Source of the DNA: Nitrospira sp.
GTDB lineage: Bacteria; Nitrospirota; Nitrospiria; Nitrospirales; Nitrospiraceae
Assembly: GCA_016873515.1 (NCBI GenBank)
Contig: VGXB01000007.1
Span: forward strand, 25,001-64,814
DNA length: 39,814 nucleotides
Reading direction: 5' to 3'
The notes under the pieces are model-generated. The model worked only from the letters and a program-made list of their open reading frames with translations, did no database searches and was not told the DNA's origin. Each line of letters opens with the position of its first letter. Position 1 is the stretch's first letter. The position numbers were made by a program, and so were the translations under genes. Positions 5,738 through 30,510 of the stretch are shown piece after piece.

Positions 5738-5738
5738 C

Positions 5739-7632: not shown

Positions 7633-7682
7633 GCGGGCGCCGACATGAGGCATTTATTTTCAATCCGCCGAGGAGGATACCG

Positions 7683-8165
7683 ATGCCGAAGAAAAAGACA
7701 CGTGTGGCGGTAAAGACCGGCCGTGCTCCTCAGAAGGCAAGCACTTCTCTGGCCGCTGCCATCAGAGCCGAGTTGTCCAAGCCGGTCGTGCCCGGCCAGA
7801 TTCAATTCGCAGCCGGCGACATTAAGCTCAATGCAGGCCGCCAGACGAAAGAACTGGTTGTGGTAAATACGGGCGACCGACCGATTCAAGTCGGTTCGCA
7901 TTGTCATTTTTTTGAATCCAACCGCGCGCTGAAGTTCGATCGGGAACGGGCGTTTGGTTTTCGACTCTCCATTCCAGCGGGGACGGCGGTGCGGTTCGAA
8001 CCGGGGGAAGAGAAGCGGGTGACGGTCGTCGCCTTGGCGGGAAAGCGGGTCGCCTATGGCATCAATGGGTTGACGAGTGGCTCGTTGGATGATGCAGCGG
8101 TCAAGGCGCACGCACTGGCGCGGGCGGCTGAACAGGGATTTTCCGGGAAAGGAGAGAAGAGGTGA
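7683..8165 (+). CDS. ureB: Urease subunit beta with extended N-terminus
   Basis: Structural beta subunit of urease. The core starts near residue 37 ([19 protein letters not shown], matching the usual PGEI opening) and includes the conserved [11 protein letters not shown] segment and [10 protein letters not shown]. At 160 residues it is much longer than stand-alone beta subunits of about 100-110: the first 36 residues are a Lys/Arg/Ala-rich extension, and a short tail follows the core. The ATG at 7683 has a strong GAGGAGG site, so the extension is real rather than a start error. The TGA overlaps the GTG of ureC. Confidence 0.95.
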
Positions 8166-9886: not shown

Positions 9887-9897
9887 GGAAAGGGAGT

Positions 9898-9972
9898 GCT
9901 GACAAGTTGCAGGCTGACAAGCGCAGTCGGGGCTGTCGTTCCATCCTGTCAGTTTACCGGCCCGTCAGCCCG
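9898..9972. repeat. Degenerate word-like repeat between ureC and ureF
   Basis: The 91-base gap contains CTGACAAG twice (9899-9906 and 9914-9921), then CTGTC, CTGTCAG (9946-9952) and CGTCAG, i.e. variants of one 6-8-base word in both orientations. The same word type (TGACAAG/CTTGTCA) recurs between secD and secF. Confidence 0.45.
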
Positions 9973-9977
9973 GATTC

Positions 9978-10664
9978 ATGAATACGCGGGCGTTGCTCGA
10001 AGGGCTTCGGTTCGTTGATAGTTTTTTCCCCTCCGGCGGTTATGCCTTTTCATCCGGCATCGAAGCGGCCATGCAAAGTAGCGCCGTCAAAAACTCCGAC
10101 CAACTAGGCCGGTATGTGGAAGACCTGCTCCGCGGAGGGATGAGCCGGCGGGAAGTGTTGGCCGTGAAGGTGGCGAACCGAGCCGGCACGACTGGTGTGG
10201 TCGTGAAGGCGATCGAGGCGGACCGCGACCTCGAGGCCACAAAAATTGCTCGCGAGTCGCGTATCGCCAGTCGCCAGATGGGGCGGCAAGTTCTCAAGGT
10301 CGCCGCGGATCAACTCCGAGACAGGCCGGCCGTCGAAGCCTATCGCAATGCTGTGGAGGCCGATCGGACTCCCGGTCACTTGGCCGTGAGCTTCGGCCTT
10401 ACGTTAGGGGCCTGTGGATGGAATGCGCAAGAGACCGCCGCGGCTTTTCTGTATCAAGCCGCTGCGGGATTTGTGTCCGCCGCGATGCGGTTGAGCCCGA
10501 TCGGTCAGTTTGAAGGGCAGCGAGTGTTGGGTGAGTGGCTTCCGGTGATCGACCAGATCAGTCGTGAGGTGGATGAGACCATGCCGATGAGCTCTTGGTC
10601 GCCAATCCAAGATATCTATGCCATGCGCCATGGCCGGCTGGAGTGGCGGCTCTTTAGAAGCTAA
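9978..10664 (+). CDS. ureF: Urease accessory protein UreF
   Basis: Cytoplasmic helical chaperone that joins UreD on apo-urease and controls the GTPase UreG during nickel insertion. The opening motif DSFFPSGGYAFSSGIEAAM is the UreF signature, and the 228-residue length is usual. No clear Shine-Dalgarno precedes the ATG at 9978, and the gap from ureC carries word-like repeats, so its translation may be weaker than that of the structural subunits. Gene order ureC-ureF-ureG-ureD is compatible with one operon. Confidence 0.93.
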   Translation: MNTRALLEGLRFVDSFFPSGGYAFSSGIEAAMQSSAVKNSDQLGRYVEDLLRGGMSRREVLAVKVANRAGTTGVVVKAIEADRDLEATKIARESRIASRQMGRQVLKVAADQLRDRPAVEAYRNAVEADRTPGHLAVSFGLTLGACGWNAQETAAAFLYQAAAGFVSAAMRLSPIGQFEGQRVLGEWLPVIDQISREVDETMPMSSWSPIQDIYAMRHGRLEWRLFRS

Positions 10665-10669
10665 AGCAG

Positions 10670-10705
10670 GTCTTAGCTATCGACTGTCAGCTAACAGCTT
10701 ATGAG
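10670..10705. repeat. Word-like imperfect palindrome between ureF and ureG
   Basis: The gap reads as repeats of AGCTA, ACTGTCAGCTA and ACAGCT and is an imperfect inverted repeat (AGCTA...CAGCT). It is of the same general type as the other intergenic word repeats of this window but with a different word. Confidence 0.4.
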
Positions 10706-10712
10706 GGGTTCC

Positions 10713-11387
10713 ATGCACGACATCAAGCGTCAGCACAATCATGGCGAGGCGCATCCGACTCAAGCGAGGAAGCAAGGCATCCCGGTGATCGGCGTTGGAG
10801 GGCCGGTTGGATCCGGCAAGACCGCACTTGTCGAAGCGCTCTGCCGGAAGTTGCGCGATCGGTACAGTTTGGCGGCGGTCACGAACGATATTTTCACAAA
10901 GATCGACGCGGAGATTCTCACAAAACGGGCTGCTCTCCCTGTTGATCGGATTCTCGGAGTGGAAACTGGCGGATGTCCCCACACGGCCATTCGGGAAGAT
11001 GCTTCGCATAATCAAGAGGCCATCAATGACTTGCTCCGGCGCCATCCGGACATCGAACTGATCTTCTTGGAAAGCGGCGGGGACAATTTGGCGGCGACCT
11101 TCAGTCCCGAATTGGTGGATGCCGTGATCTATGTGATCGATGTGGCTGGCGGCGACAAGATCCCGCGCAAAGGCGGACCTGGGATCACCCGCTCTGATTT
11201 GCTGGTGATCAACAAGATGGATCTCGCTCCCTATGTGCGATCAGATCTGGGTGTCATGGATCGGGATAGTCGGCGGATGCGGGGTGATCTCCCCTTCGTC
11301 TTCACGAACCTCTTGAGCGAGGAAGGCCTCGATCAGGTGATGGCCTGGGTTGAACAGCGCATCCCGCAACGAGTCAGGCGGGCGTGA
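10713..11387 (+). CDS. ureG: Urease accessory GTPase UreG with His-rich N-terminus
   Basis: SIMIBI-class GTPase that couples GTP hydrolysis to nickel delivery into urease. P-loop GPVGSGKT, metal-binding Cys-Pro-His in [28 protein letters not shown] and the base-specificity motif NKMDL are intact. The N-terminus from Met at 10713 holds four His within the first fourteen residues ([14 protein letters not shown]), a feature seen in UreG proteins that may store nickel. The GAGGGG at 10701-10706 suits ATG 10713 better than ATG 10701, which has no site. No ureE is present nearby, so the His cluster may partly replace it. The stop overlaps the ureD start. Confidence 0.95.
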
Positions 11388-12280
11388 TTGCCAGATCAGT
11401 CTCCGTGCCGAGGAAAAGAAAAAACGTTCCAACGGTTCTGACCGAGCCGGTCGGCCGTGTTGGTCGGCTGCAACTTGAGTACGCGAAGCGCGACGGCCGG
11501 ACCATCATCTCGCGTTCCCACTGCACCACGCCCTGGCATTTGCTGCCGCCGATCTATCTCGACGACACGGGGGCAGCCTATACTCTGCTCGTCAATCCAT
11601 CTGGTGGTCTCGTCGGCGGCGATCGTCTCTCCATCGACATGAAAGTGGATGAGCACGCACATGTTCTCATCTCCGCGCCGTCGGCAAATCGCGTCTACCG
11701 ATCAGAGGGTGAAGTCTCGGTGCAGGACATCACGCTGACGGTCGGTCCCGGCGCTGTCTTGGAGTGGTTGCCTGAACAGACCATTCCGTTCGCCGGTTCA
11801 CGATTCAAGCAAACGATTCATGCCACACTCGCGCCCGGTGCGACGATTCTGCTTTGGGATGCCATCGCATCGGGCCGCATGGCGCGCGGGGAACGCTGGG
11901 CATTTGCGACACTTGAGAACGAAATCCGGATCACGACGGCGTCGGGCGCCTCGCCCCTGGAACGATATGCACTCGATCCAGCGACGAATCTGGGAGCGGT
12001 TGGACTGGCAGCGGACTGGGACTATGTGGCGTCGCTGTATGTGGTAAATGATGCGGTCCCACCGGAGGTGTGGAGCCGATTGGAAACAAGGATCGGACTC
12101 GCACTCGACGAATATGCGGAGCACATTCTCGGGGGCGTGTCTCAACCAGCGGTGCCAGGAATTGCAGTCAAATTGCTCGCCAAATCGGCACCGGATCTGA
12201 TGAGGATGCTGGACGTCTTGTGGGCAGCGGTTCGTGCCGAACTCTGGGGTTTGCCACCGGTGGCGTGGAGAAAGTACTAA
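11384..12280 (+). CDS. ureD: Urease accessory protein UreD
   Basis: Urease chaperone (called UreH in some species) that binds apo-urease and recruits UreF and UreG. The 298-residue protein carries the family segments [19 protein letters not shown] and ANRVYRSEG, and ends in the usual Trp-Arg pattern (VAWRKY), so the C-terminus is complete even though a transposase remnant begins immediately after the stop. It starts with GTG overlapping the ureG TGA, indicating translational coupling. It is the last gene of the urea cluster. Confidence 0.93.
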
Positions 12281-14003: not shown

Positions 14004-14393
14004 ACTGACGACAAGACCTCGGGATTTTCGAGAACAGGACGCCGAACGGGCTCACTCTAGCAGGTTGATGGGCGATTAGCTATTTCTTTTGTGTCCAGCT
14101 GCGTCCTTCATGGGATTTGCCCCTGCAAGATTTAGAGAGCTGTTCTCGGCCTGGCCTGTCCGGATTCGATGAACGGCGTACGCGATTTTGGGTCTTGTGC
14201 GGGCTGTTTTGGTGCGGTATGATCCTCGGTAGATACTCGGTCCGAAACTAGTCTCGCCGGCAACGTACCGATGGTACCGATCGTGTATCTGCTGTCCACA
14301 TGGTCCCGTTCCGTGGTCCGGTCGGCGATAAATGAGAACGGAACTCGCAAGACAGGAACCAGGGCGATTAGTCAATCACAAGGAGGCAGTTAT
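14004..14393. other. Divergent intergenic region, desaturase/cupredoxin
   Basis: This 390-base gap separates two divergent genes. A plus-strand promoter is visible (14195-14223). Frames within it (99 codons minus, and the 5' extension of the cupredoxin frame) lack ribosome-binding sites and protein-like composition, so they are not called. Confidence 0.55.
14195..14223 (+). promoter_or_regulatory. Sigma-70-type promoter for the cupredoxin-like gene
   Basis: TTGTGC (14195-14200), a 17-base spacer and TATGAT (14218-14223) make a good sigma-70 match. The start would be near 14230, giving a leader of about 165 nucleotides before the ATG at 14394. Confidence 0.5.
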
Positions 14394-15188
14394 ATGAAGC
14401 GTGCGTTATCAGTCATATTGGGTGTGGCAGCCGTCGCGGTCGTTGCGGCGCCTCTCACGTCGTTCGCGGGTGGAGCAATTTCTGGCAAGGTGACCTATGC
14501 CGGAAAAGCAGAACAGAAGGAATTTTTGTTCTCGAAGTTTCCGAACCCGAAGTTTTGTCCCCAGATCCCTAACAAGGCCGTGGTCGATGGCGACAAGCGG
14601 CTCTTGAAGCAGATCGAAGTAGGTAAGGATGGTGGGTTGAAGGGCGCAGTCGTGGCCGTCGTGGACATCGAAGATAAGGCGTTCATGGATGGCTATACCG
14701 GTACCGAAGTTGTGGCGGCATTTTGCGATTTTCAGCCCTTCACTGGTATCGTCGTGAATACGCGGCCCTTCAAGGTTGAAAATACCGATGCCGATGCGGA
14801 CGATCCCAAGTCGGTCGCGGGGGTGCTCCACAATCCGCACAGCTTTACGGTCAAGGGAACCACTTCGGCGACTGGTTTCAACATCGGTCTCGCGAAGAAA
14901 GGCGATAAGCTCGACAAGCCGGTGACCTTCCGCGGTGGTGCGGAAAAGGAAGGGTACTATCGGTTGCAGTGCGACCAGCATGAATTTATGCAGGGGTTCT
15001 TCTTTCCGGTGACCAATGCGCATTACGCGGTAGCGAAGGAAGACGGTTCCTTCGAAATCAAGGATGTGCCTGCCGGCAAGCACAAGGTTGTTGCATGGCA
15101 TCCGTTCGCCGGCAAGGGAAAGAGGACGGAGTTTGAGATCGATGTGACCGACGGTGGAACGGCTACCCTCAAGGCTGAAGTCAAGTAA
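14394..15188 (+). CDS. Periplasmic cupredoxin-like protein with C-terminal carboxypeptidase-regulatory-like domain
   Basis: Exported 264-residue protein: a Sec signal peptide (MKRALSVILG...) cleaved after SFA near residue 26, a beta-rich domain to about residue 205, and a short Ig-like domain (DGSFEIKDVPAGKHKVVAWHP) to the end. HNPHSF (His 146/149) and CDQHEFM (Cys 193, His 196, Met 199) give a plausible type 1 copper site, though the Cys-x2-His-x2-Met spacing is tight. Extra Cys at 55 and 111 may form a disulfide. It could carry electrons between periplasmic cytochromes or serve in copper handling. The start follows AAGGAGG; a longer frame from 14271 is not supported. A terminator follows. 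Confidence 0.75.
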   Translation: MKRALSVILGVAAVAVVAAPLTSFAGGAISGKVTYAGKAEQKEFLFSKFPNPKFCPQIPNKAVVDGDKRLLKQIEVGKDGGLKGAVVAVVDIEDKAFMDGYTGTEVVAAFCDFQPFTGIVVNTRPFKVENTDADADDPKSVAGVLHNPHSFTVKGTTSATGFNIGLAKKGDKLDKPVTFRGGAEKEGYYRLQCDQHEFMQGFFFPVTNAHYAVAKEDGSFEIKDVPAGKHKVVAWHPFAGKGKRTEFEIDVTDGGTATLKAEVK

Positions 15189-17725: not shown

Positions 17726-18847
17726 TTGCAAGAAGTGGAGCTGTTCCATGATTCGCTTCACGAACGGCGCTTCACGAGCGACGAGTTACTAATGTTGCAT
17801 CGGATGGCACTGAGAGTGCTCCCCAGCTTGAGTCTCGCGGTCACGGAGGATATGGTCCGCAAGCGGAAGCGGATTGTCATGTTCGTGCCCGGGCTGGTGG
17901 CGTTCGGTATCTATCGATTGGTCAAGCAGGTGATGCCGCTGGCCGATCCATTAGTGTTGCTCTCGGTGAGCAGTCTGATGGCGGTGGTCACGGCTTTGTT
18001 GGCATATCGTGTCGGACGATCCGCTTCATGGGCGACGATCGTGCGTGAAGACGGAACCTGGTTGCTTAGCTGGCTGGCCGGCTGGATTGGAGCGGTCTAC
18101 GGTCTGCAACTCTCGCTGCTAGTCTTGGCCCTGTTGTGGCTGGTGGGCTACGATTATCTCCAGCATCCCGACGGCCCGGCCATGATGGCGATCATCATTT
18201 CTTGTACGTCGGTCGCGCGCGATGCTTTTGAGATCGGTCATGTGCGGAATGTGGCGTTGATAGGCCGGCCGATTCCGACATTTCCCAATGGGGTGCCCCT
18301 CTGGACCATGCTGCGAGAGCATATGGCCCAAGCCGGTTCATGGATCACTGCGGGGTTGGTGGTGGGTGGTGTGGCGGCCTCACTAGGATTAACTGCAGGA
18401 AATCAGCAGATCGAGGCGCTGATTCAAGTGGCTGCGGTTACCCTATTGGGTGGAGGAATTGCCCTCTGTGCCTATTTGAGTGGGTCGCACCCGTCCACTC
18501 CGTGGGTTGATACGCTCCGGCGAACCGCGCCGGGAGAGCTGTTGAAATATTGGTGGTGGCCGGGGATGGCGTTTGCCTCGACCTACTATCTCGTGGCCCT
18601 GGGTGGGCTCTTGTTCATGCTAAGACAGCCGGGCATTTCATCAGGCGGGGCAGTGGTGGGAGGCGCGGTCGTGACAGCCATGATGGGGCTCTACGGCTAT
18701 TACTTGGGCCATCGCCGTCAGGTTGAGAATGCGCAAGCTCCACAGTTGACGGAAGGGATGCTGCGGTGCCCATTTGTGATGGGTATTCTTGGTAAATCTT
18801 CCAGTATGGGAGCGGCCATTGCGGCTGCGCGTGGATCAAAGGTTTAG
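17726..18847 (+). CDS. Unknown polytopic membrane protein
   Basis: A protein of up to 373 residues with a soluble N-terminal part of about 45 residues and roughly seven to eight hydrophobic segments. I recognise no family or catalytic motif. The start is uncertain: the frame can only open at TTG 17726, because a TGA precedes it directly, or later at GTG 17735 or ATG 17792; none has a good ribosome-binding site. The N-terminal residues before Met 17792 (TSDELLMLHRMALRVLP) still look protein-like. It ends four bases before the oxidase-like gene, so the two are probably translated together and may form a complex. Confidence 0.6.
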   Translation: MQEVELFHDSLHERRFTSDELLMLHRMALRVLPSLSLAVTEDMVRKRKRIVMFVPGLVAFGIYRLVKQVMPLADPLVLLSVSSLMAVVTALLAYRVGRSASWATIVREDGTWLLSWLAGWIGAVYGLQLSLLVLALLWLVGYDYLQHPDGPAMMAIIISCTSVARDAFEIGHVRNVALIGRPIPTFPNGVPLWTMLREHMAQAGSWITAGLVVGGVAASLGLTAGNQQIEALIQVAAVTLLGGGIALCAYLSGSHPSTPWVDTLRRTAPGELLKYWWWPGMAFASTYYLVALGGLLFMLRQPGISSGGAVVGGAVVTAMMGLYGYYLGHRRQVENAQAPQLTEGMLRCPFVMGILGKSSSMGAAIAAARGSKV

Positions 18848-18851
18848 CGGG

Positions 18852-20729
18852 ATGATCAAGCTTCGTTCGAATCAGCCGCGGTTCTGCCTTGTACTGGTCG
18901 CCCTGCTCACGGCGTTGATCGGCCTGCTGAGTCCGACCTTAAACGTTCCCTCGTTTGCCGAGGAGACAGAAGATTTCTATTTCAAGACACCCGGCACCCC
19001 GCAAGGGCCGTCGGCCCCAGCGCCGAGTGAAATGGTTTATCCGCGAATCGGCTCGTTCGACAGCCGGATGCTGGTGTGGTTTGTGACACAGCAACATACG
19101 TACTTCGGTGGGTTTGTGCTCGCGCTGCCGCTCTTCTGCGCCTTGCTGGAGTTCCTCGGGCTCATGACCAAGAAACCGGCCCTGGCGCTTCGCTATGATG
19201 GACTGGCCAGGGATCTCGCGAAGGTCGCGCTGCTGGCGTTATCAGTCACGGCACTCATCGGCAGCGCGATGCTGGCCATGTTCATCATGCTCTACCCCAG
19301 TTTCATGAACTATATGGGGGGCACGTTCAAATCATTCATGCCGGCCTATGCCGCCGTATTCGTCGGAGAGTCACTCTTATTGCTTATCTATTACTACAGC
19401 TGGAACCGGATGGCCGAACAGGGACGGAAGTGGGTCCACGCGTCGATCGGCATTATGACGAATATCGTGGGGACCGCGCTGTTGTTGCTGGTGAATGCCT
19501 GGTCCGCGTTTATGATGGCGCCGGCCGGCGTGGATGCGCAGGGACGGTATTTGGGCAATGCCTGGCATCTCCTGCATTCCGTGCTCTGGAATCCACTCAA
19601 TGTCCATCGGTTTTTGGCGGATATCATGTCGGGTGGTGCGGTGGTGCTGGCCTATGCCTGTTATCGGTTTTTCATTGCCAAGACCGGCGAGGAGCGGGCC
19701 TATTTCGATTGGGTGGGCAATGTCTTCCTTTTTGTGATGGTGTGCGCGCTCCTTCCCATGCCGATCGCCGGCTATTGGCTGATGCGGTCGGTCTTCGTCT
19801 TTCGCCAAAGCATGGGCGTGACGATGATGGGTGGGTTGTTAACCTGGCTGTTCGTCGTTCAGGCAATGCTGATCGGTGTGCTGTTCCTTGGGATCAATTA
19901 CTATCTCTGGCAAAGCATGGCACGGCTGAAGGGCGCGGAACGGTATCAGCCCTACTATCAATTCGTGCTCGGCGGAATGATGCTGGCCCTGTTTATTTGG
20001 CTGACACCCCATACGTTGCTGGTGTCCGGGGGAGAGTCAAAGGCCATGGGCGGCGCGCAGCATCCAGTCGTCGGAAACTACGGGGTCATGTCGTCCAAGA
20101 ATGGGGCGATCAACGTCATCCTGCTCTTGACCGCGCTCAGTTACCTGTACTATCGGCGAGCCAATCGGACGATGACCGTCTCATGGGCGAAGGCGGGCAA
20201 TATCATGATCGCCGTGCTCTTTGCCGTCGGCATGATCAATGTGATTGGATTATCGGTGTATGGATTCTACCTGCCGGCGAAGATTCGCGTGGGGCTGTCT
20301 ACTCCGCAGGCATTCACGACCTTGACAGTGATCGTGGGCAGCTTGCTGGTCAATCACTTCATGCTGAAGGGCGCGATTGTCCATGGAGGAATCCATTGGG
20401 GCAAGATTCCCTTTCGCGGCATGGTGGCCTTGTTCGGTATGGCGGCGGCGTTCAGTTGGGTGATGGGATTGATGGGGTTTATCCGGTCATCCGGGCGGTT
20501 GTCGTGGCATGTGAGCGAACTGATGGCCGATGTGTCGCCCTGGGCTTTTACGCCGGACCTGGCGGTTGCCGCGAAAATCGTGACACTCAATATGGTGGTG
20601 TTTTGGGGGGCGGTTTTGGTCTTGTTCTGGATGTGCCAGCGTGGACAGCAGCCTGTATCGGTGATGGGCGAGGAGTTCGGTGAGAAAGGGGCGCCATTGT
20701 TTGCGCCGGTTCCTTCGCAAGAAACCTAG
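18852..20729 (+). CDS. Cytochrome bd-like oxidase subunit I, paralogue 1
   Basis: A 625-residue membrane protein, distantly related to CydA. After a signal peptide or anchor and about 45 extracytoplasmic residues come some 14 membrane spans. QQHTYFG (His 82) takes the place of the N-terminal heme ligand of CydA; GESLLLLIYYYSW matches the CydA Glu-Ser helix; VNAWSAFMMAPAG matches its ANGWMQNPVG; conserved His occur in WHLLH, NVHRF, TPHT and QHPV. The CydA GRQPW motif is absent. Oxidases of this type are known from Nitrospira as candidate terminal oxidases, and no classical cytochrome oxidase is present here. Compared with paralogue 2 it lacks one His (MPAY for MHIY) and has extra His in NHFMLKGAIVHGGIHWGK. 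Start 18852 opens the signal peptide. Confidence 0.8.
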   Translation: MIKLRSNQPRFCLVLVALLTALIGLLSPTLNVPSFAEETEDFYFKTPGTPQGPSAPAPSEMVYPRIGSFDSRMLVWFVTQQHTYFGGFVLALPLFCALLEFLGLMTKKPALALRYDGLARDLAKVALLALSVTALIGSAMLAMFIMLYPSFMNYMGGTFKSFMPAYAAVFVGESLLLLIYYYSWNRMAEQGRKWVHASIGIMTNIVGTALLLLVNAWSAFMMAPAGVDAQGRYLGNAWHLLHSVLWNPLNVHRFLADIMSGGAVVLAYACYRFFIAKTGEERAYFDWVGNVFLFVMVCALLPMPIAGYWLMRSVFVFRQSMGVTMMGGLLTWLFVVQAMLIGVLFLGINYYLWQSMARLKGAERYQPYYQFVLGGMMLALFIWLTPHTLLVSGGESKAMGGAQHPVVGNYGVMSSKNGAINVILLLTALSYLYYRRANRTMTVSWAKAGNIMIAVLFAVGMINVIGLSVYGFYLPAKIRVGLSTPQAFTTLTVIVGSLLVNHFMLKGAIVHGGIHWGKIPFRGMVALFGMAAAFSWVMGLMGFIRSSGRLSWHVSELMADVSPWAFTPDLAVAAKIVTLNMVVFWGAVLVLFWMCQRGQQPVSVMGEEFGEKGAPLFAPVPSQET

Positions 20730-21823: not shown

Positions 21824-22741
21824 GTGGAAAACAAGGGCATACTGTACGGGTCGATCGCGTTTGTGTTTGGGTCATTCTTGCTGATGGTCGGATTGCTGGT
21901 CTATGAATCGTACAAGGCCAATCAAATGAAGCAATTGGCCATGTCCATCAAGTCCGAAGCCAAGGAGGTGGTCAGCACCGTGGCGGGTGAAGACTACTCG
22001 ATGTACAAGACGAGGATGGGTGATGAAGGCCGTGAAATGGTCCAGATCCCCGAAGGGCCGTTCACTATGGGCAGCAATGACGGCGACCCGGACGAAGCGC
22101 CTGAGCATCAAGTGTTCTTGAAGGGATTTTTCCTGGACCGAAAAGAAGTCACGCAGGCAGAATACATGCGGTTTGCCAAGATGACGAAGCGTGCCATGCC
22201 GAGGATCGAGGTCTTCGAGGACGACCAGTCGAAGCTACTTCAGCCAGACTTCGCAGCGATGAGCGTCTCGTGGGACGATGCGATGGCCTATTGTAAATGG
22301 GCCGGCAAACGTCTGCCGGCTGAAGCGGAATGGGAAAAGGCTGGACGGGGCGAGGGAAAGAGACGGTATCCGTGGGGAGATAAATTTGCCGTCAATGTCG
22401 CCAATGTGGCCGGCAGCGAAGACGGATACAAGTATCTCGCGCCTTCCGGTTTGTTTGAGGCAGGACGGAGTCCATACGGGCTTTACGACATGACCGGCAA
22501 TGTGGCCGAGTGGGTGGCTGACTCATACGACGAGGGGTACTATAAGAAATCACCGTATCGAGATCCCAAGGGGCCTGAGAATGCCGATCTGAAGGTCGTG
22601 CGCGGCGGGTCGTGGCGGGAAACGGAACATAACGCCAGGATTTCCAAACGATTTGCCGCGAAGCACTGGCGAACGGATATCACCATCGGGATTCGCTGTG
22701 CGGCGGATGTGGAGCAGGAAGGCCAGCCCGCTGCTCCCTAA
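21824..22741 (+). CDS. Membrane-anchored FGE/SUMF1-fold protein 1
   Basis: A 305-residue protein with one N-terminal membrane span (residues about 8-28) and a periplasmic formylglycine-generating-enzyme fold: EMVQIPEGPFTMGSNDGDPDEAP, FFLDRKEVTQAEYMRFA, VSWDDAMAYCKWAGKRLPAEAEWE, GLYDMTGNVAEWVAD and VVRGGSW. The paired copper-binding Cys of true FGE (Cys-x4-Cys before GFRCA) are missing; only the final Cys in IGIRCAAD remains. It is therefore unlikely to make formylglycine and is closer to NirV-like proteins found beside denitrification and respiratory genes. It starts at GTG 21824 after GGAGAAGG. A likely role is maturation or scaffolding of the neighbouring oxidase. Confidence 0.8.
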   Translation: MENKGILYGSIAFVFGSFLLMVGLLVYESYKANQMKQLAMSIKSEAKEVVSTVAGEDYSMYKTRMGDEGREMVQIPEGPFTMGSNDGDPDEAPEHQVFLKGFFLDRKEVTQAEYMRFAKMTKRAMPRIEVFEDDQSKLLQPDFAAMSVSWDDAMAYCKWAGKRLPAEAEWEKAGRGEGKRRYPWGDKFAVNVANVAGSEDGYKYLAPSGLFEAGRSPYGLYDMTGNVAEWVADSYDEGYYKKSPYRDPKGPENADLKVVRGGSWRETEHNARISKRFAAKHWRTDITIGIRCAADVEQEGQPAAP

Positions 22742-22747
22742 GGCGGT

Positions 22748-23644
22748 ATGCTCGAATCCAAATTCAAATTAGTCTTCCTGTTTGTGGTGCTGGCGTGCGC
22801 GGCCATGCCGATCATTGCTATTTTGCGCGGGACGACGGTGACCCCGTATGAAAAGCCGGTGTCCGGATCGACCACCGAAGTTGAGTTGGGAGAAGAGAGT
22901 GTCTCTGGCGAGGAACCTCTTCTGAGTGAGATGGTGACGATTGCCGCAGGGCCGTTTGTTCGTGGCACCGAAAATGGAGGTTTCGATGAACGACCAACAC
23001 GGACGATTCACTTGGATGAGTTTTTGATCGATCGCTTCGAAGTGACCAATCATCAGTACCAACAATTTGTCGCAGCCACAGGCCATCGAAAACCCGGACT
23101 CCCATCCCGCTATGCGAAGAGCGGGGCCAAAGTGCGTGGCGTGAACCAACCGATTGTCTATGTATCCTGGAATGATGCCGAGGAGTATTGCCGATGGAGA
23201 GGCAAGCGGCTTCCTGCCGAAGCGGAATGGGAAAAAGCCATGCGTGGTACAGATGGAAGGCTGTGGCCATGGGGAAACACAGAGCAGCCCGATGGGGCGA
23301 ATTGGGCTCGCGTGAAGGACGGATATGAGGTTTCGGCGCGTGTTGGAACCTTTCAGGTCGATAAGAGTCCGTATGGAGTGATGGATGGGGCGGGCAATGT
23401 CATGGAGTGGGTTGCGGATTGGTACGACGAAACGTATTATAAGAGCTCGCCGAATCAGAATCCGCTGAGTCCAGAGTATGGGACCTATCGGGTGCTCCGC
23501 GGAGGGAGCTATACGACGACTGGCGCGGACGTTCGAATTACGAGTCGAAGCAAGATGATGCCGGATTTTCGAGATGAAACGATCGGGTTTCGCTGCGCGA
23601 GTTCGACAAAATCAAGCGAGGAGAAGTGGGATAAGAATCTGTGA
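22748..23644 (+). CDS. Membrane-anchored FGE/SUMF1-fold protein 2
   Basis: A tandem relative of the preceding gene: 298 residues, N-terminal span (residues about 5-23), then EMVTIAAGPFVRGTENGG, FLIDRFEVTNHQYQQFVA, VSWNDAEEYCRWRGKRLPAEAEWE, GVMDGAGNVMEWVADW and VLRGGSYTT. It also lacks the FGE Cys pair (TSRSKMMPDF at that position), keeping only the Cys of GFRCASS. The two proteins probably arose by duplication and could form a heterodimer in the periplasm. It begins six bases after the previous stop. No terminator was seen after it. Confidence 0.8.
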   Translation: MLESKFKLVFLFVVLACAAMPIIAILRGTTVTPYEKPVSGSTTEVELGEESVSGEEPLLSEMVTIAAGPFVRGTENGGFDERPTRTIHLDEFLIDRFEVTNHQYQQFVAATGHRKPGLPSRYAKSGAKVRGVNQPIVYVSWNDAEEYCRWRGKRLPAEAEWEKAMRGTDGRLWPWGNTEQPDGANWARVKDGYEVSARVGTFQVDKSPYGVMDGAGNVMEWVADWYDETYYKSSPNQNPLSPEYGTYRVLRGGSYTTTGADVRITSRSKMMPDFRDETIGFRCASSTKSSEEKWDKNL

Positions 23645-23647: not shown

Positions 23648-23752
23648 TTAGAGAAAGTCGAAATAGTAGAGGATTAAAAACACGGCCAAAATCAGATTGA
23701 CAACCATACCAGCCAAAACTATAATGTCAAATACTTTTGATTTTTGCGACAT
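23648..23752 (-). CDS. 34-residue single-span microprotein (minus strand)
   Basis: A 34-codon frame on the minus strand encodes MSQKSKVFDIIVLAGMV, then a hydrophobic run, ending LYYFDFL: four polar residues, one strong membrane helix and an aromatic tail, i.e. a typical small membrane subunit. A purine-rich stretch (AGAAGAAAAAA) precedes the ATG at 23752. It is too short for normal gene calling. It is divergent from the two microproteins and oxidase on the plus strand. I do not recognise a family. It could be an oxidase-associated peptide like CydX or CcoQ, or a chance frame, but the composition argues for a real peptide. Confidence 0.5.
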   Translation of the reverse strand: MSQKSKVFDIIVLAGMVVNLILAVFLILYYFDFL

Positions 23753-23798
23753 GATTTTTTCTTCTAATTAAGATAAAATAAATGGCTCACTGCTGCGC

Positions 23799-23808
23799 CT
23801 TGCGCAAG
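23799..23808. promoter_or_regulatory. 10-bp perfect palindrome in divergent intergenic region
   Basis: CTTGCGCAAG is a perfect palindrome midway between the minus-strand microprotein gene (start 23752) and the plus-strand microprotein/oxidase genes (start 23894), a reasonable place for a shared operator. No promoter on the plus strand could be called with confidence. Confidence 0.3.
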
Positions 23809-23893
23809 AGTGAATAACATTCAGGCCTCCTGGATGTCAAGAAACACAAGGCGTAAACACCCTTTCATCTCGAATTGAAATAAGGAGTTACAG

Positions 23894-24019
23894 ATGGCGT
23901 CGGCGTCACCTCCAGATAGTGAGATCAAGGTTAAAATCGGCAAGATGATTTTCTACATTACCTGTGCAGCAGGCTTGTGGTTTTTCTATTGGTTTGCCGG
24001 CATACAGTGTCCCTGCTGA
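23894..24019 (+). CDS. 41-residue single-span microprotein with C-terminal Cys-Pro-Cys
   Basis: The frame starts at ATG 23894, nine bases after AAGGAG, and encodes a 41-residue protein: about 18 polar residues (MASASPPDSEIKVKIGK), one membrane helix rich in aromatic residues (FYITCAAGLWFFYWFAG) and the tail IQCPC. The strong ribosome-binding site and position ahead of the oxidase gene support a real small subunit. The terminal Cys-Pro-Cys would face the periplasm if the N-terminus is cytoplasmic and could bind copper or form a disulfide; this is inference. No family recognised. Confidence 0.65.
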   Translation: MASASPPDSEIKVKIGKMIFYITCAAGLWFFYWFAGIQCPC

Positions 24020-24026
24020 TGGATGG

Positions 24027-24060
24027 CCTATCGTGTGCTCAGCCTTTGAGTCACGATAGG
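24027..24060 (+). terminator. Perfect 9-bp stem-loop between the two microprotein genes
   Basis: CCTATCGTG (24027-24035) pairs exactly with CACGATAGG (24052-24060) over a 16-base loop. There is no T run, so it is more likely an mRNA processing or stability hairpin than a full terminator. It would separate the first microprotein from the second one and the oxidase gene. Confidence 0.5.
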
Positions 24061-24083
24061 GAACAACTGAGGAGAAGAGAACA

Positions 24084-24215
24084 ATGGCTGTTCTGAATAA
24101 TCCGATCGTCGCCGTCATCGTGTCACTCATTATTTCGGTGGGATATTTTTTGGCGGTCGATCATTTCATGATGGATATGCAGGGCCTGGACTTCTGGTAT
24201 CTGTTTCGCCAATAA
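24084..24215 (+). CDS. 43-residue single-span microprotein with Met/His-rich segment
   Basis: ATG 24084 follows GAGGAGAAGAGAACA and opens 43 codons: MAVLNNPIVAVIV and a membrane helix to about residue 24, then DHFMMDMQGLDFWYLFRQ. The His and three Met just after the helix (HFMMDM) are arranged like simple copper-binding motifs, though Met is also common in membrane proteins. It lies 78 bases before the oxidase paralogue 2 start and is probably its small subunit. No family recognised. Confidence 0.65.
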   Translation: MAVLNNPIVAVIVSLIISVGYFLAVDHFMMDMQGLDFWYLFRQ

Positions 24216-24293
24216 ACCAGGGCGGATCGGGGTGCTGAGCGGCAGGCTGCGAGAATTTTTAGAACGACAGTGAATGAATCAAGGAGGTATCTC

Positions 24294-26207
24294 ATGGGCC
24301 GCGTAATCGGTAAGCGCCTGTTCTCAATCATGGCGCTGTGCGCGATGGTTGGCCTCCTTCTGCTTCCGATCGTTGTGGCGTTGCCGTCGCTGGCTCTTGG
24401 CGAAGAAGCAACAGCCGGCGGTGCAAAGAAAGAAGGGGCTACGGTTGAGAAGGGGCGCGACGTCTACTACAAGACGGAAGGTGTTGTGGTGGGTGCTCCT
24501 GCTCCGAAGACGACGGATGGTCCCAAGGATTATCCGCGGTATAACTTTGAAAGCCGTGTCTTGCTCTGGTTTGCCAACCAGCAGCATCTTTATTACGGCA
24601 GCTTCGTGTTGGCCGTGCCGATCTTCTGCATGATCATTGAGTTCATGGGGGTCGTGACTAAAGACAAGGCTCTTGCAAAGCGGTATGATCAGCTGGCGTA
24701 CGATTTTATCAAGATCAGTTTGACAGCCTACTCCCTGACGGCCGTGTTGGGCGGCATTTTGATCTTCACATTCCTGACGCTGTACCCAGCATTCTTTTCC
24801 TACCTGTCCAGCGTCTTCCGTCCGGTCATGCACATCTATGCGTTGATGTTCGTTGCGGAAAGCGGAACCCTCTACATTTACTATTATGGTTGGGACAAGA
24901 TGAAGGAAGGGTTCTTGAAGTGGATTCACTTGAGCATGTCCGTCGTTTTGAACATCATCGGTACGTTGCTCATGTTCCTGGCCAATTCCTGGATTGGTTT
25001 CATGATGTCGCCGGCCGGGGTCGATGAGCAGGGGCGGTATCTCGGCAACATCTGGCACGTGATTCATACCGCATTGTGGAATCCGCTGAACCTCCATCGG
25101 ATTTTAGGCAACATGGCCTTCGGTGGCGGTGTCGTGGCGGCCTATGCCGCGTACAAATTCCTGGCGGCGAAGACGGACGAGGATCGTGCGCACTATGACT
25201 GGATGGGCTATATCGCCATGGCGCTTGGTGTAGCATTCCTGATCCCACTGCCGTTTGCCGGGTATTGGCTGATGCGCGAGGTCTATGCCTATCGCCAGCA
25301 AATGGGCATCACGCTCATGGGAGGGTTGCTTGCCTGGTTGTTTATCATTCAGGCGACCATGATCGGTATCCTGTTCTTGAGTACCAACTATTATCTCTGG
25401 CAGGCAATGGGCCGGATGCGAGGCGCTGAGAAATACCAGCGATACATCAAATATTTGGTCTTCTTGCTTGCGTGCGGGTACATGGTCTTCATTACGCCCC
25501 ACACAATGGTCATGACACCGGCAGAATTGAAGGCGATGGGAGGACAGCAACATCCCGTGCTTGGAAATTATGGAGTTATGTCTGCCAAAAATGGAGGCAT
25601 CAACGTCATTATTACCACCACGGTGCTGAGCTTCGTCTGGTACATGCGAGGCAATAAGGTTTCAACTGTGTCATGGGCAAAGTTCGGCAATATCTTTATG
25701 GGTGTATTCTTCACGTGCGCGTATTTCAATATCATCGGGCTCGCCGTCTATGGCTATTATATTCCGGCGAACGTGCGCGTCGGGTTGTCCGTTCCACAGG
25801 TGACGACCACGCTCTCTTGTCTCTTCTTTATGTTTGCGTTGAACAGCATGATGATGAAGGGGGCGAAGCAGATGGGGCCGATCGAGTGGGGCAAGATATC
25901 GGCTCGTTCGCAATATGCGCTGATCATGCTCGCAACAGCGTTTACCTGGATGATGGGATTGATGGGCTACATTCGCTCGTCAGTCCGTCTGTTCTGGCAT
26001 GTCAATGAAATCATGCGCGATAATTCGCCATGGGCTTATACGCATACCGTGGGATTCGCGGCCAATATGATATCGGCCAACGTCCTGTTTTTCTGGATCA
26101 GTATTTTATTTGTCTTCTGGCTCGGCAGTTTGACGGCCAAGAAGGCACCCGCTGAGGTAAAGGTGGCCGTGCCGGGGAGTGTCCCGCAACCCGTCGGAAG
26201 CCATTAA
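24294..26207 (+). CDS. Cytochrome bd-like oxidase subunit I, paralogue 2
   Basis: A 637-residue membrane protein, homologous over its whole length to paralogue 1 (18852-20729). A signal peptide or anchor, a Gly/Lys-rich extracytoplasmic segment of about 55 residues and some 14 spans are visible. Key residues: QQHLYYG (His 98), VMHIYALMFVAES (His 180, Glu 189), KWIHLS (His 212), ANSWIGFMMSPAG, WHVIH (His 255, 258), NLHR (His 268), ITPHT and GGQQHPVLGNYGVMS. His 180 is Pro in paralogue 1. The order Glu-Ser helix, ANSW motif and following His fits the CydA fold. It is expected to reduce oxygen, or another acceptor, using electrons from the cytochromes c encoded downstream. Start 24294 has a perfect AAGGAGG; the earlier frame from 24270 does not. 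Confidence 0.82.
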   Translation: MGRVIGKRLFSIMALCAMVGLLLLPIVVALPSLALGEEATAGGAKKEGATVEKGRDVYYKTEGVVVGAPAPKTTDGPKDYPRYNFESRVLLWFANQQHLYYGSFVLAVPIFCMIIEFMGVVTKDKALAKRYDQLAYDFIKISLTAYSLTAVLGGILIFTFLTLYPAFFSYLSSVFRPVMHIYALMFVAESGTLYIYYYGWDKMKEGFLKWIHLSMSVVLNIIGTLLMFLANSWIGFMMSPAGVDEQGRYLGNIWHVIHTALWNPLNLHRILGNMAFGGGVVAAYAAYKFLAAKTDEDRAHYDWMGYIAMALGVAFLIPLPFAGYWLMREVYAYRQQMGITLMGGLLAWLFIIQATMIGILFLSTNYYLWQAMGRMRGAEKYQRYIKYLVFLLACGYMVFITPHTMVMTPAELKAMGGQQHPVLGNYGVMSAKNGGINVIITTTVLSFVWYMRGNKVSTVSWAKFGNIFMGVFFTCAYFNIIGLAVYGYYIPANVRVGLSVPQVTTTLSCLFFMFALNSMMMKGAKQMGPIEWGKISARSQYALIMLATAFTWMMGLMGYIRSSVRLFWHVNEIMRDNSPWAYTHTVGFAANMISANVLFFWISILFVFWLGSLTAKKAPAEVKVAVPGSVPQPVGSH

Positions 26208-26291
26208 TCGACATTACGCGTTGAGCGATTGCATAGGGTGGGACAAGGGCATGGCCCGGTCCTCTCACCCCGTAGCTCAGGAGGTTGCACC

Positions 26292-27596
26292 TTGGGTAAT
26301 CTGATTTCTGAAGCCCTCTCGATGGCATGGATGGCGATAGTCATCCTGGTTGGCCTGCTCGTGTATTTCCAGATGTCGATTCACGATCCTGTGGCAAAAA
26401 AGCGAGCGGTGTTTAAGACGTTCATTGGAATCGTCGCAACGTTCCTCTTGTTCGTCGCAATCGCTAACTATAAGACGAATTTCTATGGGGAAAGTCGGCT
26501 GTTGCCGGTTTCTCTCGTCATGATCACGGCCACCACCTTTATCATGGCGCTCTATTTCACCAATCTGAGCGCCTTATTGAGGATCGGCGGCATGATGTTT
26601 TTCATTGCCGCGTTTCTCTCCGGATACGGCAACTGGCTGCCGCAGGTCGAAGGCGGATTTCCACCGGTCGAAGAGAAGAAGACCTGGGATTCCATGACGT
26701 CGCAACAGCTGGCTGACGAGGGCGAGAAGATCATTTTCGGAGGGGTTGGAAAAAATCAAGAGCAAGGAGCGATTGGCAAAGGCCAATGTCCGCTTTGCCA
26801 TGCATTCCATGCCGGTATGCTCGGTGAACGTGCCCCAAACTTGTTGGGTCTCCCGAACCGCAAGGAACGGCTAGAGGATCCCAAGTATTCCAAGGGTAAC
26901 CCTGCAAAACGTGACTACTCCGTCAAGGAAGCCTTTCCTGGTTCCGGCACTGCAGAGAACATTCAAGAATACATTGCAGAGTCACATTCCTGCCCGAGTT
27001 GCTATGTGGTGAGTGGATATGGTGTCAAGGGCACCAATGACAAGGAAAGTCCAATGCCGGCCATCCATAAACCACCGATCTCTTTGAGTCTGCCGGAGCT
27101 TGCAGCTGTCGATACATGGATATATCTCCGTGAAGGTGTTGAACCGCCGTCATTTGAAGAGATCGTTAAATCATATGAGAAGTTCATTCCGGAAGCCGAT
27201 CGTCCCAAGCAGCAAGAGGAAAAGGCTGGGCCACCCAGTGCATTGATGGCCGACGGTACGGAGCCGGTCGATCAGATTTTTGCCAAGGCGCAATGTGTAT
27301 CCTGTCATACGATCCCGGGTATCCCAGGAGCGATGGGTACGATCGGCCCGAAGCTTGAAGAGGGAACGACTGCCGCTCTGCGCATTAAGGACCCAACCTA
27401 CAAAGGTACGGCAAAATCGCCGGCAGAGTACATTATGGAGTCGATCGTTGAGCCGAGCGCCTATGTGGTGAAGCCGTTTCCGGATAACACCATGCCGAAG
27501 GTGTTCGGTCAGAAACTCAGCGCCGGGGCGCTGAAGAAGATCGTCGATTATCTCTCACAGGTGAAGGCTGGCGCGCCGCCACCAAAAATATCTTAA
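26292..27596 (+). CDS. Membrane-anchored diheme cytochrome c
   Basis: A 434-residue protein with three N-terminal spans (residues about 10-115) and two periplasmic cytochrome c domains with heme sites CPLCH (166-170) and CVSCH (335-339). Met residues in MPAIHK and TMPKVF are likely sixth ligands. In the first domain a CPSCY (234-238) replaces the usual NPSAY-type segment; the second domain has EPSAYVV there. The extra Cys pair is not a heme site, since it lacks His. The start is TTG 26292, chosen because AGGAGG lies seven bases upstream; the frame extending to 26229 has no site. It probably feeds electrons to the adjacent oxidase. Confidence 0.85.
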   Translation: MGNLISEALSMAWMAIVILVGLLVYFQMSIHDPVAKKRAVFKTFIGIVATFLLFVAIANYKTNFYGESRLLPVSLVMITATTFIMALYFTNLSALLRIGGMMFFIAAFLSGYGNWLPQVEGGFPPVEEKKTWDSMTSQQLADEGEKIIFGGVGKNQEQGAIGKGQCPLCHAFHAGMLGERAPNLLGLPNRKERLEDPKYSKGNPAKRDYSVKEAFPGSGTAENIQEYIAESHSCPSCYVVSGYGVKGTNDKESPMPAIHKPPISLSLPELAAVDTWIYLREGVEPPSFEEIVKSYEKFIPEADRPKQQEEKAGPPSALMADGTEPVDQIFAKAQCVSCHTIPGIPGAMGTIGPKLEEGTTAALRIKDPTYKGTAKSPAEYIMESIVEPSAYVVKPFPDNTMPKVFGQKLSAGALKKIVDYLSQVKAGAPPPKIS

Positions 27597-27647
27597 ATAG
27601 CCATTCTTTATGGCTGTCGAATTTTTGTGGAGAGTAAGGAGTTTGCG

Positions 27648-28685
27648 ATGAAAATATTAATGTCACTTGGGGCTCTCGTTGGAGCACTGGGGCTCCTCCT
27701 GCTGGGAGGAATGATCTTTGACGTCGTTCCTTCAAACACGGTGCGGTTAATTGAAGGCTATATGCCGATGCAAATGCTCTTCGAGGTGGGGTGTTATGTC
27801 CTCGGCTTCACAGGATTGAGTTATATGCTCAATGCTATGGGGCTGGGCATTCCGCGGTTTTGGCAAGGAATCGGTTTCTGGATCTTCTTGATGATGTATC
27901 TGAAGTACCGCGTGTATCCGCCGATCCCTTTCAGTGTACGTGCGATGTACGGGACAGTTGCATTGGTGACGGTCTTCATGTGGGTGTCGGCTAACGAAGA
28001 GGACTGGAAAAAGTTCAAGCAGCCTATTATGAATGTCCTTGACGCACAAACCGGGATGAACCGATTGTTGCGGTACATGTATCTGGTGCTCCTCCCCATC
28101 CTGATCGGGGGGTTCTCCTTCAATGCAATGATGCCCAAATCAGAAGAGCCGATCGAGCTTCGGACCGTTCATCCTGCCCCTCCGGCCAGTACAAAGGTTC
28201 ATGGCAAAACGTATGTATTGCAAACATCGCAAAGTCCCTATCGTGTCAACCCAGAAGGGAAGTACGATCAGGAGTATAGCAACGCCAATATCGTGGAGCA
28301 GGGCATGGGCCGGTTGATGAAACCCAACGCTAATCCTTGGGACGAGAAAAACCAAGGCTATTTGAAGTACGTAAGAGAGGGCGGAGAGATTTTCTTCCAG
28401 AATTGCCACTTCTGCCATGGGGACAATCTCAATGGACGGGGGTTGCATGCTTTCGCATTCAATCCGATTCCTGCGAACTTCACCGACCCAGGCACGATTG
28501 CGCAGCTCCAGGAAACGTTCATCTTCTGGCGCGTTGCGAAAGGTGGTATCGGATTGCCGAACGAAGGGTTCCCCTGGGCGTCTGTGATGCCGCCGTGGGA
28601 GCAGCATTTGACAGTCGATGAAATCTGGAAAGTGATTTTGTTTGAGTATTGGCACACGGGCTACTATCCCCGTACGTGGGACTAA
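27648..28685 (+). CDS. Membrane-anchored monoheme cytochrome c
   Basis: A 345-residue protein with about five N-terminal hydrophobic segments (to residue ~160) and a periplasmic cytochrome c domain with a CHFCH site (Cys 253, Cys 256, His 257) and a probable Met ligand in SVMPPWEQH. The domain is of the class I type found in NxrC-like and related cytochromes (GEIFFQNCHFCHGDNLNGRG). ATG 27648 is chosen: AAGGAG lies six bases upstream, and MKILMSLGAL starts the first span. It lies 51 bases after the diheme cytochrome gene. A role as a membrane relay or quinone-linked subunit is possible; no heme b ligand pair could be assigned. Confidence 0.82.
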   Translation: MKILMSLGALVGALGLLLLGGMIFDVVPSNTVRLIEGYMPMQMLFEVGCYVLGFTGLSYMLNAMGLGIPRFWQGIGFWIFLMMYLKYRVYPPIPFSVRAMYGTVALVTVFMWVSANEEDWKKFKQPIMNVLDAQTGMNRLLRYMYLVLLPILIGGFSFNAMMPKSEEPIELRTVHPAPPASTKVHGKTYVLQTSQSPYRVNPEGKYDQEYSNANIVEQGMGRLMKPNANPWDEKNQGYLKYVREGGEIFFQNCHFCHGDNLNGRGLHAFAFNPIPANFTDPGTIAQLQETFIFWRVAKGGIGLPNEGFPWASVMPPWEQHLTVDEIWKVILFEYWHTGYYPRTWD

Positions 28686-28734
28686 GCCGTACAAGGAATT
28701 TTCGCACACTTTGATGGATGAGATGAGGGTGAAT

Positions 28735-30510
28735 ATGATGAACAGCATATCTCCGAAGGCCGGTGTGGTTGTTGCCACTGCCTTCGCAGTCCTTCTCACG
28801 ACCAGCGGTTTTGCCTCCGTGGTATTTGCGCAAGGTGGTCTTCCCGAAGGTTTCAAAAAGGGAGATCTGGCACCAGAACCTTCCGCGGAAATGATCGAAG
28901 CCGGGAAGCGCGTCTACTTTACCAAGTGCGTTTGGTGCCACGGCGTCGATGGGGCAGGAGATGGACCGGGTGCCGATCGATTGTGGCCACGGCCTCGGAA
29001 CTTCAACCAAGGTACCTTCAAGATCCGGCACACAGCCAGCGGAGAGCTTCCTCTCTTCGACGCAAAGAAGCCTGTAGCCGGACAAAATGATCTTTTTGAG
29101 ACTGTCACGCATGGGTTGCCTGGATCGGCCATGCCGCCATGGGAAGGTATTCTATCAGAAGAGCAACGGCTCCAAGTCCTGTCCTTCGTGACGACCCAAC
29201 TCGTGAAGGACCGCAAATTCACCGACAAACAATCAGAAACTCAGACTATCTTAAACTTGGCGGAGTTGAAGCCGAAGCCGGCAACCGAAGAAAGCAGGAA
29301 GCGGGGCTCCGAGTTGATCGTTGAAAAGAAATGCGTGGAATGCCATGGCATGGAAGGCCGGGGCGATGGGAACGCCTTTAATCTGAAGGATGACTGGGGG
29401 TTTTCGATTCAGCCGGCCAACTGGCATAAGTGTTGGAATTTTAGAGGAAGCAGGCAGGATCCCTACAACGTCAGCAACATTTTCCGGACCTTCTCCACCG
29501 GCGTCAATGGCACACCGATGCCGTCGTTTGCGGACAATACGTCTGTGGACGAACGATGGGACATTGCGAATTTCGTGAACTCCCTGTGCGAACGAAATGC
29601 TCTGGGACAGCCGCTCCCAATCGATCCACTGACAGACAAGCCGAAAATCAACTTCGTGATTCCATCCGATATGGTCGAGGGTGAAATTCCGTCTGATATA
29701 GATGCCGAGGTCTGGCAGAAGGCGCCACGTCGTTACGTGGCCATGGGTGGACAAATTACGCATAAGCCGAGAAATTTCGTCAATCGCATCGATGATATTT
29801 GGGTCCGATCCCTCTACAACGACAAGTCCATTGTCTATTTGTTGGAGTGGGATGACCGGACGAAGAGTGTTGCTGAAGGGAAGCTTCCTTGGGGGCCGAC
29901 TCAAGTCAACATTGATATCAAGGAACAAGAACCGAAAACCGGGGAAGAAGGATCGATTGCGGCGAGCCAGAACAATTACGCTGTGTATAACGACGCAATT
30001 GCGATTGAAACACCAGTAAAGTGGAAAGAGCTGCCTGCCCCGATCAAACCGCGGTACTTGTTCGGCACTAATGAGCAGTTCCCGGTCGATATTGTGAAAT
30101 GGGAAGCTGATGGCTCCCTCCGCGCCTTTAAAGGCACCGGTTGGGACAAGGACTTTGAGCAGCGAGACAACTACGAAGAGACGCTCAAAGTTCTGAAGGG
30201 CGAGTGGAAGAACGGCCGGTGGTACGTCATGATCGAGCGTCCGCTGGGGAACAAGAAGGATCAGGACTACGATGAAGATACCTTCTTTGAGGTCGGCCAA
30301 TATATCCCAACCGTCTTTTTTGCGTGGGATGGACACAACGGGGATGCAGGTCGCAAGATGGCCGTATCCGCGTTCTATTACACGTTCATGAATCCCCCGG
30401 TTCCACAAGAAACGTACATCTATCCAGTAGTTATCGCCTTTGGTGTGGTCCTGTTGGAAGGATGGGTCCTCACACGCCGCGCGAACAGGAAGAAGGGCAA
30501 GACCCTCTAG
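28735..30510 (+). CDS. NxrC-like periplasmic cytochrome: two heme c domains fused to an ethylbenzene-dehydrogenase-type heme b domain
   Basis: A protein of about 591 residues with a signal peptide (residues ~10-32), heme c sites CVWCH (65-69) and CVECH (200-204), then a region from ~320 to ~570 resembling the heme b-binding gamma subunit of DMSO-reductase-family enzymes (ethylbenzene dehydrogenase, NxrC): SDIDAEVWQKAPRRYVAMGG, WVRSLYNDKSIVYLLEWDD, KNGRWYVMIERPL and FFAWDGHNGDAG. A C-terminal span (YPVVIAFGVVLLEGWVL) with a basic tail anchors it. NxrC normally passes electrons from nitrite oxidation to the respiratory chain. No nxrA/nxrB is in this window, so this may be an orphan subunit shared with NXR encoded elsewhere. 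GAGGG precedes ATG 28735 and 28738; either can be the start. Confidence 0.82.
   Translation: MMNSISPKAGVVVATAFAVLLTTSGFASVVFAQGGLPEGFKKGDLAPEPSAEMIEAGKRVYFTKCVWCHGVDGAGDGPGADRLWPRPRNFNQGTFKIRHTASGELPLFDAKKPVAGQNDLFETVTHGLPGSAMPPWEGILSEEQRLQVLSFVTTQLVKDRKFTDKQSETQTILNLAELKPKPATEESRKRGSELIVEKKCVECHGMEGRGDGNAFNLKDDWGFSIQPANWHKCWNFRGSRQDPYNVSNIFRTFSTGVNGTPMPSFADNTSVDERWDIANFVNSLCERNALGQPLPIDPLTDKPKINFVIPSDMVEGEIPSDIDAEVWQKAPRRYVAMGGQITHKPRNFVNRIDDIWVRSLYNDKSIVYLLEWDDRTKSVAEGKLPWGPTQVNIDIKEQEPKTGEEGSIAASQNNYAVYNDAIAIETPVKWKELPAPIKPRYLFGTNEQFPVDIVKWEADGSLRAFKGTGWDKDFEQRDNYEETLKVLKGEWKNGRWYVMIERPLGNKKDQDYDEDTFFEVGQYIPTVFFAWDGHNGDAGRKMAVSAFYYTFMNPPVPQETYIYPVVIAFGVVLLEGWVLTRRANRKKGKTL

Follow-up and report, generated by a model that had tools for sequence, protein, structure and literature searches.

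Three single-span microproteins of 34, 41 and 43 residues (A34, B41 and C43), encoded beside the cytochrome bd-like gene bd3 of a Nitrospira genome, are probably small subunits of the downstream bd-like (OR-N-type) complex, and a promoter embedded antisense in A34 probably drives the B41-C43-bd3 operon. The three peptides would be CydX-like in role, without homology to CydX. Nitrospira-type bacteria are major nitrite oxidisers, and A34, B41 and C43 provide concrete candidate subunits for their bd-like respiratory complexes. The window, that is, the whole stretch of DNA analysed (39,814 nucleotides; contig C7 of this genome, positions 25001-64814), contains the following features around these genes.

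18789..20729, + strand: bd4, a CydA-like paralogue of bd3 (52% identical to it by sequence comparison)
21824..22741, + strand: FGE1, membrane-anchored protein of the FGE-sulfatase fold (PF03781)
22748..23644, + strand: FGE2, second membrane-anchored FGE-fold protein, convergent with A34 (PF03781; adjoins B41 or A34 in complete loci)
23648..23752, − strand: A34, single-span microprotein gene, 34 aa (FDIIVLxGMVVN..LAVFLILYYFDFL)
23697..23725, + strand: perfect sigma70-type promoter sequence TTGACA-N17-TATAAT, inside A34 and antisense to it, pointing at B41-C43-bd3 (12/12 in a consensus scan)
23811..23840, − strand: putative A34 promoter, TTGACA-N17-TATTCA with a TG extension (an alternative count gives 18-nt spacing), recognised from sequence only
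23894..24019, + strand: B41, single-span microprotein gene, 41 aa (C-terminal end GIQCPC)
24084..24215, + strand: C43, single-span microprotein gene, 43 aa (VDHxxMDxQGLDxWYLFR)
24270..26207, + strand: bd3, CydA-like subunit of an OR-N-type bd-like oxidase, assigned from sequence (PF01654)
26229..27596, + strand: membrane-anchored c-type cytochrome (PF13442/PF00034; after bd3 in complete loci)
27627..28685, + strand: membrane-anchored c-type cytochrome (PF13442; synteny)
28642..30510, + strand: alternative NxrC-like protein with two cytochrome c stretches and an EB_dh heme-b domain (PF00034, PF09459; TIGR03477-like)

Conservation and anatomy of the three small genes

All three frames described in the initial annotation (34, 41 and 43 residues) are present on the strands and at the positions it gave, as are the Gln-Cys-Pro-Cys end of the 41-residue product and the HFMMDM past the helix of the 43-residue one. 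The good ribosome-binding sites reported for the two plus-strand frames correspond to clear Shine-Dalgarno sequences (AAGGAG for B41 and GAGGAGAAG for C43), while that of A34 is weak (AGAAGAA).

The neighbouring oxidase was used to retrieve 80 Nitrospira loci, of which 74 contain A34, 76 contain B41 and 75 contain C43. Wherever one of them is missing, the contig ends 3 to 524 bases upstream of the oxidase match or, for one C43, there is an N gap; all three genes are present wherever a named Nitrospira locus has enough assembled upstream DNA. The length of A34 is constant (34 aa in 75/75 copies). Neither a lack of conservation in related genomes nor stop codons in orthologues, named in the initial annotation as grounds for giving up the frames, was found: profiles from alignments A1 (A34), A2 (C43) and A3 (B41) matched 158, 143 and 146 of 396 Nitrospirota genomes, respectively. 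Nearly every genome of the order Nitrospirales carries one A34, one B41 and one C43, all at one place, and the A34 family, with one copy per genome, extends to other classes of the phylum. Five genomes of the order (G179, G269, G345, G381 and G385) are without the microproteins and also without a full-length bd3 orthologue (best bd3 E values of 1e-134 to 1e-201 instead of 0), indicating that the microproteins come and go with bd3. The loss in these genomes is probably that of the whole locus, resulting from incomplete assemblies.

The synonymous-site bias that had been suggested as a check is evident in the true frames, for which Nei-Gojobori pN/pS across all unique sequences was 0.119 (A34), 0.090 (B41) and 0.263 (C43). 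Values in the other same-strand frames were 1.03 to 2.68 and those in reverse-strand frames 0.18 to 7.6, the low reverse-frame values (0.18 to 0.37) arising because that frame shares third codon positions with the gene. A34, B41 and C43 are genes under purifying selection.

Each peptide has one hydrophobic helix and a K/R-rich N terminus, with basic residues ahead of the helix in A34 and B41. Based on this charge distribution, the N terminus is probably cytoplasmic and the C terminus periplasmic in all three. The helix of A34 follows the pattern F-D-x-x-V-x-x-G-(M/L)-V-x-N, with Asn19 invariant within Nitrospira. In C43, residues S14, F22, D26, H27, M30, Q33, G34, L35, D36, W38 and Y39 are invariant in alignment A2, and the wider pattern is YF-x3-(D/N)-x3-M-x(1-2)-Q-(G/N)-L; His27, which follows the Asp, is specific to family f1 and is replaced elsewhere by Trp, Tyr or another residue.

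B41 follows the pattern (K)xGKxIFYxT...WFFYWF-G, and QCPC is invariant in the 22-sequence alignment A3. The Cys-Pro-Cys occurs only in the Nitrospirales families f1 to f3 (as NCPC in one f1 genome and PCPC in one f3 genome). Outside these families, the tails read VVHH in f4, ...YH, YHN or EH in f8, f9 and f13, ...GGH or GAH in f5, mostly ...PxGFxH in f7 and f10, and SHGVxPH-like in f20 and f21. Family f6, with neither Cys-Pro-Cys nor a terminal His, is the sole exception to a C-terminal His outside the Cys-Pro-Cys families. Five genomes also have B41 paralogues at sites not near any bd3 (L128 3957-4148, L129 7677-7922, L130 8141-8338, L131 7957-8256 and L132 6554-6811); their polar N termini are longer, and ...WFFYW(L/F)NGIQCPC is intact.

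The suggestion that the peptides are possibly copper-binding was not established, given the variability of the C43 His, the restriction of the B41 Cys-Pro-Cys to three families and the absence of a terminal ligand in f6. Likewise, a Cys/His metal site conserved across all members, as expected of a copper-binding assembly protein, was not found, and the peptides matched no copper-chaperone family in Pfam or NCBIfam. More generally, searches of these two databases with the three peptides returned no family (the weak A34 matches are hydrophobic-helix noise), comparison of the B41 and C43 profiles with PDB sequences yielded nothing beyond trivial matches, the Pfam model of CydZ/DUF2474 (PF10617) was not matched at an E value of 1, and an Rfam scan of the region found no match. 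YxxWxxGx15(E/D), a motif shared by 97% of CydX homologues (PMC4325964), occurs in 0/75 A34, 0/77 B41 and 0/76 C43 sequences (0/228), and identity with CydX was rejected. The likeness between LAVDH of C43 and LALEH of Escherichia coli CydX is limited to this one short stretch.

The CydA-like neighbour and its gene cluster

The start of bd3 is likelier to be the downstream ATG near position 24294 than the GTG at 24270. The protein scored 74.6 bits against PF01654 (cutoff, 26.2) and keeps equivalents of the E. coli CydA heme ligands His19 and His186 and of Glu107. In a Foldseek search with its AlphaFold2 model (mean pLDDT, 80; pTM, 0.80), the best PDB matches were cytochrome bd subunit I, with a TM-score to target of 0.52 to 0.62. 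By its PF01654 match, CydA fold and heme-ligand histidines, bd3 belongs to the cytochrome bd subunit I superfamily, within which its sequence places it as an OR-N-type CydA-like protein. The positions of the quinol-loop residues K252 and E257 are occupied by Leu and Leu, so the residues expected of a quinol oxidase are missing; alignment of the C-terminal half to E. coli CydA is not reliable. No CydB gene was seen in the cluster, and the genome encodes four CydA-like proteins.

The gene order around bd3 is that of bd-like_3/alt_NxrC_2 of N. moscoviensis, to which the passages on this cluster assign a candidate role in reverse electron flow, the proposed terminal oxidase there being bd-like_2, near complex III (PMC6606698). 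The counterpart of bd-like_2 in the present genome lies on contig C41. For the corresponding cluster of Nitrospina and Kuenenia, a role like that of alternative complex III is suggested in the relevant passages (PMC3578206). The initial annotation had called the neighbouring enzyme an oxidase. By sequence it is CydA-like and without the quinol-loop residues, and in gene order it corresponds to bd-like_3 and not to the terminal-oxidase candidate.

In complete loci, the order FGE2, B41, C43, bd3, two cytochromes c and alternative NxrC is kept across the class. Within the order Nitrospirales, the oppositely oriented A34 separates FGE2 from B41; in several class-level families it lies between FGE1 and FGE2. 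Outgroup G007 carries A, B, C and bd3 as a same-strand series in which every gene has a ribosome-binding site (that of A is good), and in outgroup G049, A directly follows the alternative NxrC gene on the same strand. These arrangements indicate that A34, despite its antisense orientation in Nitrospira, belongs functionally with the other genes. Several of the outgroup A/B/C assignments had weak HMM scores (E values of 1e-5 to 0.5) and were helped by position.

FGE1 and FGE2 accompany the cluster and are without the Cys pair by which active formylglycine-generating enzymes bind copper. The product of 14271-15188 is cupredoxin-like by eye and has a homologue in the same cluster of class-level genomes (L117, L118, L121 and L123). 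Further upstream (1446-12280), genes for urease and a urea ABC transporter were recognised by eye from the open reading frame translations.

Second bd3 copies (74 to 78% identical) were observed at L182 6203-8122, with 2421-5975, and at L183 6811-8898, with 2992-6444 and 1048-2391. An NxrA-like molybdopterin enzyme is encoded immediately downstream of each, and the L183 copy is also near an NxrB-like Fe-S subunit. No A34, B41 or C43 was found beside second bd3 copies; the short hydrophobic open reading frames next to them (L183 6482-6685, L184 6782-6928 and L187 6192-6380) are unrelated to A, B or C by profile.

Probable subunits or possible assembly factors of the bd-like complex

The initial annotation took the peptides to be small subunits or assembly peptides. 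Their association with the neighbouring enzyme is supported by strict conservation of gene order, by co-occurrence and by purifying selection, and physical membership of its complex is probable. In the arrangement we favor, the complex would consist of the CydA-like bd3, two membrane cytochromes c and the alternative NxrC, and the three peptides would pack against bd3 and shape its periplasmic face. B41 could offer a C-terminal thiol or imidazole at the membrane surface (Cys-Pro-Cys in Nitrospirales, His elsewhere), and C43 could offer its conserved D-x3-M-x2-Q-G-L patch. From the predicted topology, both would face the periplasm, on the side occupied by the cytochromes and the NxrC-like protein. 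Together, the peptides may add stability to the complex or its cofactor sites, much like CydX in cytochrome bd.

The nearest parallel is with CydX, CydY and CydZ, which are likewise single-span proteins of about 40 aa encoded beside a CydA-type gene; the N terminus of CydX is cytosolic and its C terminus periplasmic (PMC4325964). In contrast to CydX, which is encoded after cydB and has a partner CydA with a long Q-loop, the genes described here are upstream of a partner that has no Q-loop residues, no cydB is present, and three different families occur at once. The same gene order of bd-like protein, two cytochromes c and alternative NxrC is described for the bd-like_3/alt_NxrC_2 cluster (PMC6606698) and for its Nitrospina and Kuenenia counterparts (PMC3578206), and the cited passages on these clusters contain no mention of the three small genes or of the embedded promoter. 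A possible further parallel is the TO_1 bd-like complex of "Candidatus Manganitrophus", in which a periplasmic cytochrome b is described as accompanying a bd-like protein and which is shared with other Nitrospirota; the passages on it likewise contain no mention of small subunits (PMC9040806). Small single-span oxidase subunits are thus already known, and, as far as the cited passages extend, what is new is the occurrence of three such families on a poorly understood complex, with a predicted antisense promoter inside the gene of one.

The small single-span subunit CcoQ/FixQ of the cbb3 terminal oxidase differs in its partner, which is a heme-copper subunit and not a CydA-like protein, and the peptides gave no family match.

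The main alternative, which we regard as rather unlikely, is that the peptides are assembly or maturation factors acting in heme or copper insertion or subunit docking, with the B41 Cys-Pro-Cys or His transferring or holding a metal. Conserved synteny would fit assembly factors as well. In most genomes A34 is transcribed separately from the operon, an unusual arrangement for a subunit made in stoichiometric amounts. Second bd3 copies, including some next to nxrA/nxrB, lack an adjoining A, B or C, and orphan B41 paralogues bearing Cys-Pro-Cys are present away from bd3 in five genomes. Furthermore, the terminal soft ligand of B41 stays Cys or His in nearly all lineages despite changing surroundings. 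However, the structural operon begins with B41 and C43, and conservation runs along the whole helix, as packing predicts. The metal-transfer version also has to contend with the lack of a terminal ligand in f6, the unconserved His of C43 and the missing match to any copper-chaperone family. As subunits, A34, B41 and C43 are targets to look for in complexome and cryo-electron microscopy data, where they would account for unassigned density.

The putative promoter within A34

TTGACA-N17-TATAAT is identical in 72/72 unique A34 alleles, with variation at spacer positions, and lies 114 to 178 nt upstream of B41 in 75/75 loci. The pattern was found in 176 of 197 Nitrospirales genomes (144 of the 151 near-complete ones), with 0 control matches, and there are only four perfect sites of N17 spacing in the whole genome. 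A perfect copy is likewise present in f2 and f3 loci (L125, L126 and L133 to L135) and in the divergent f1 locus L136. The sequence is missing from f4 and from every class-level and outgroup locus examined, where the A34 protein is conserved nonetheless. Its position and conservation suggest that it acts as the promoter of B41-C43-bd3, so that in Nitrospirales families f1 to f3 the operon would be transcribed from within A34. As such, it predicts the transcription start of a very strongly expressed respiratory operon, and what is described for N. moscoviensis (PMC6606698) is in keeping with a consensus promoter.

Synonymous variation along A34 mirrors the embedded sequence, with pS values of 0.010 in codons 9 to 12 (−10 box), 0.184 in codons 17 to 19 (−35 box) and 0.526 in codons 20 to 34. 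In these last codons, outside the promoter, pN/pS is 0.055. The low pS in the boxes and this low pN/pS indicate selection on both layers, for the protein over the whole gene and for the promoter in mid-gene. The DNA of A34 would thus specify a protein on one strand and a promoter on the other, making it a natural case of a coding sequence constrained for both.

The putative promoter of A34 itself faces the operon promoter. The two transcripts would therefore overlap by about 70 nt at their 5′ ends, over the A34 start region, where polymerases may meet head-on and interfere. Tentatively, A34 could be a dual-use gene whose sense strand encodes a respiratory-complex subunit and whose antisense strand carries the operon promoter, with colliding transcription coupling the two and B41 adding a metal ligand that changes between Cys-Pro-Cys and His across lineages; we consider this fuller scheme possible but doubtful.

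The predicted 5′ overlap and the small, hydrophobic nature of the peptide would also suit a peptide of regulatory or type I toxin-like function, with its mRNA restrained by the oxidase operon's antisense leader. This is very improbable, as A34 is always tied to one respiratory cluster, occurs as one copy per genome and is kept as a protein in class-level genomes and outgroups that have no antisense arrangement. Least probable, and largely refuted, is the view that A34 is not a protein and that its frame is a mere by-product of the operon promoter: even synonymous sites are indeed frozen in the codons that overlie the −10 and −35 boxes and the Shine-Dalgarno sequence is weak, but codons 20 to 34 combine free synonymous change (pS of 0.53) with strong protein conservation, f4 and class-level genomes retain the protein without the promoter, and an outgroup has A in a same-strand run with a good ribosome-binding site.

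The bases of the putative A34 promoter form, on the + strand, an imperfect dyad (TAACA-N14-TGTCAA) between A34 and B41. Its core motif was present in 66 of 71 loci and spans 25 nt in 61 of these 66. An FNR-type site was considered for the dyad and rejected because the spacing does not fit; besides being the putative A34 promoter, the dyad might possibly be an operator or a leader hairpin. In distant lineages, TTGACA/T with TG and TAGAAT-like boxes lies upstream of A34.
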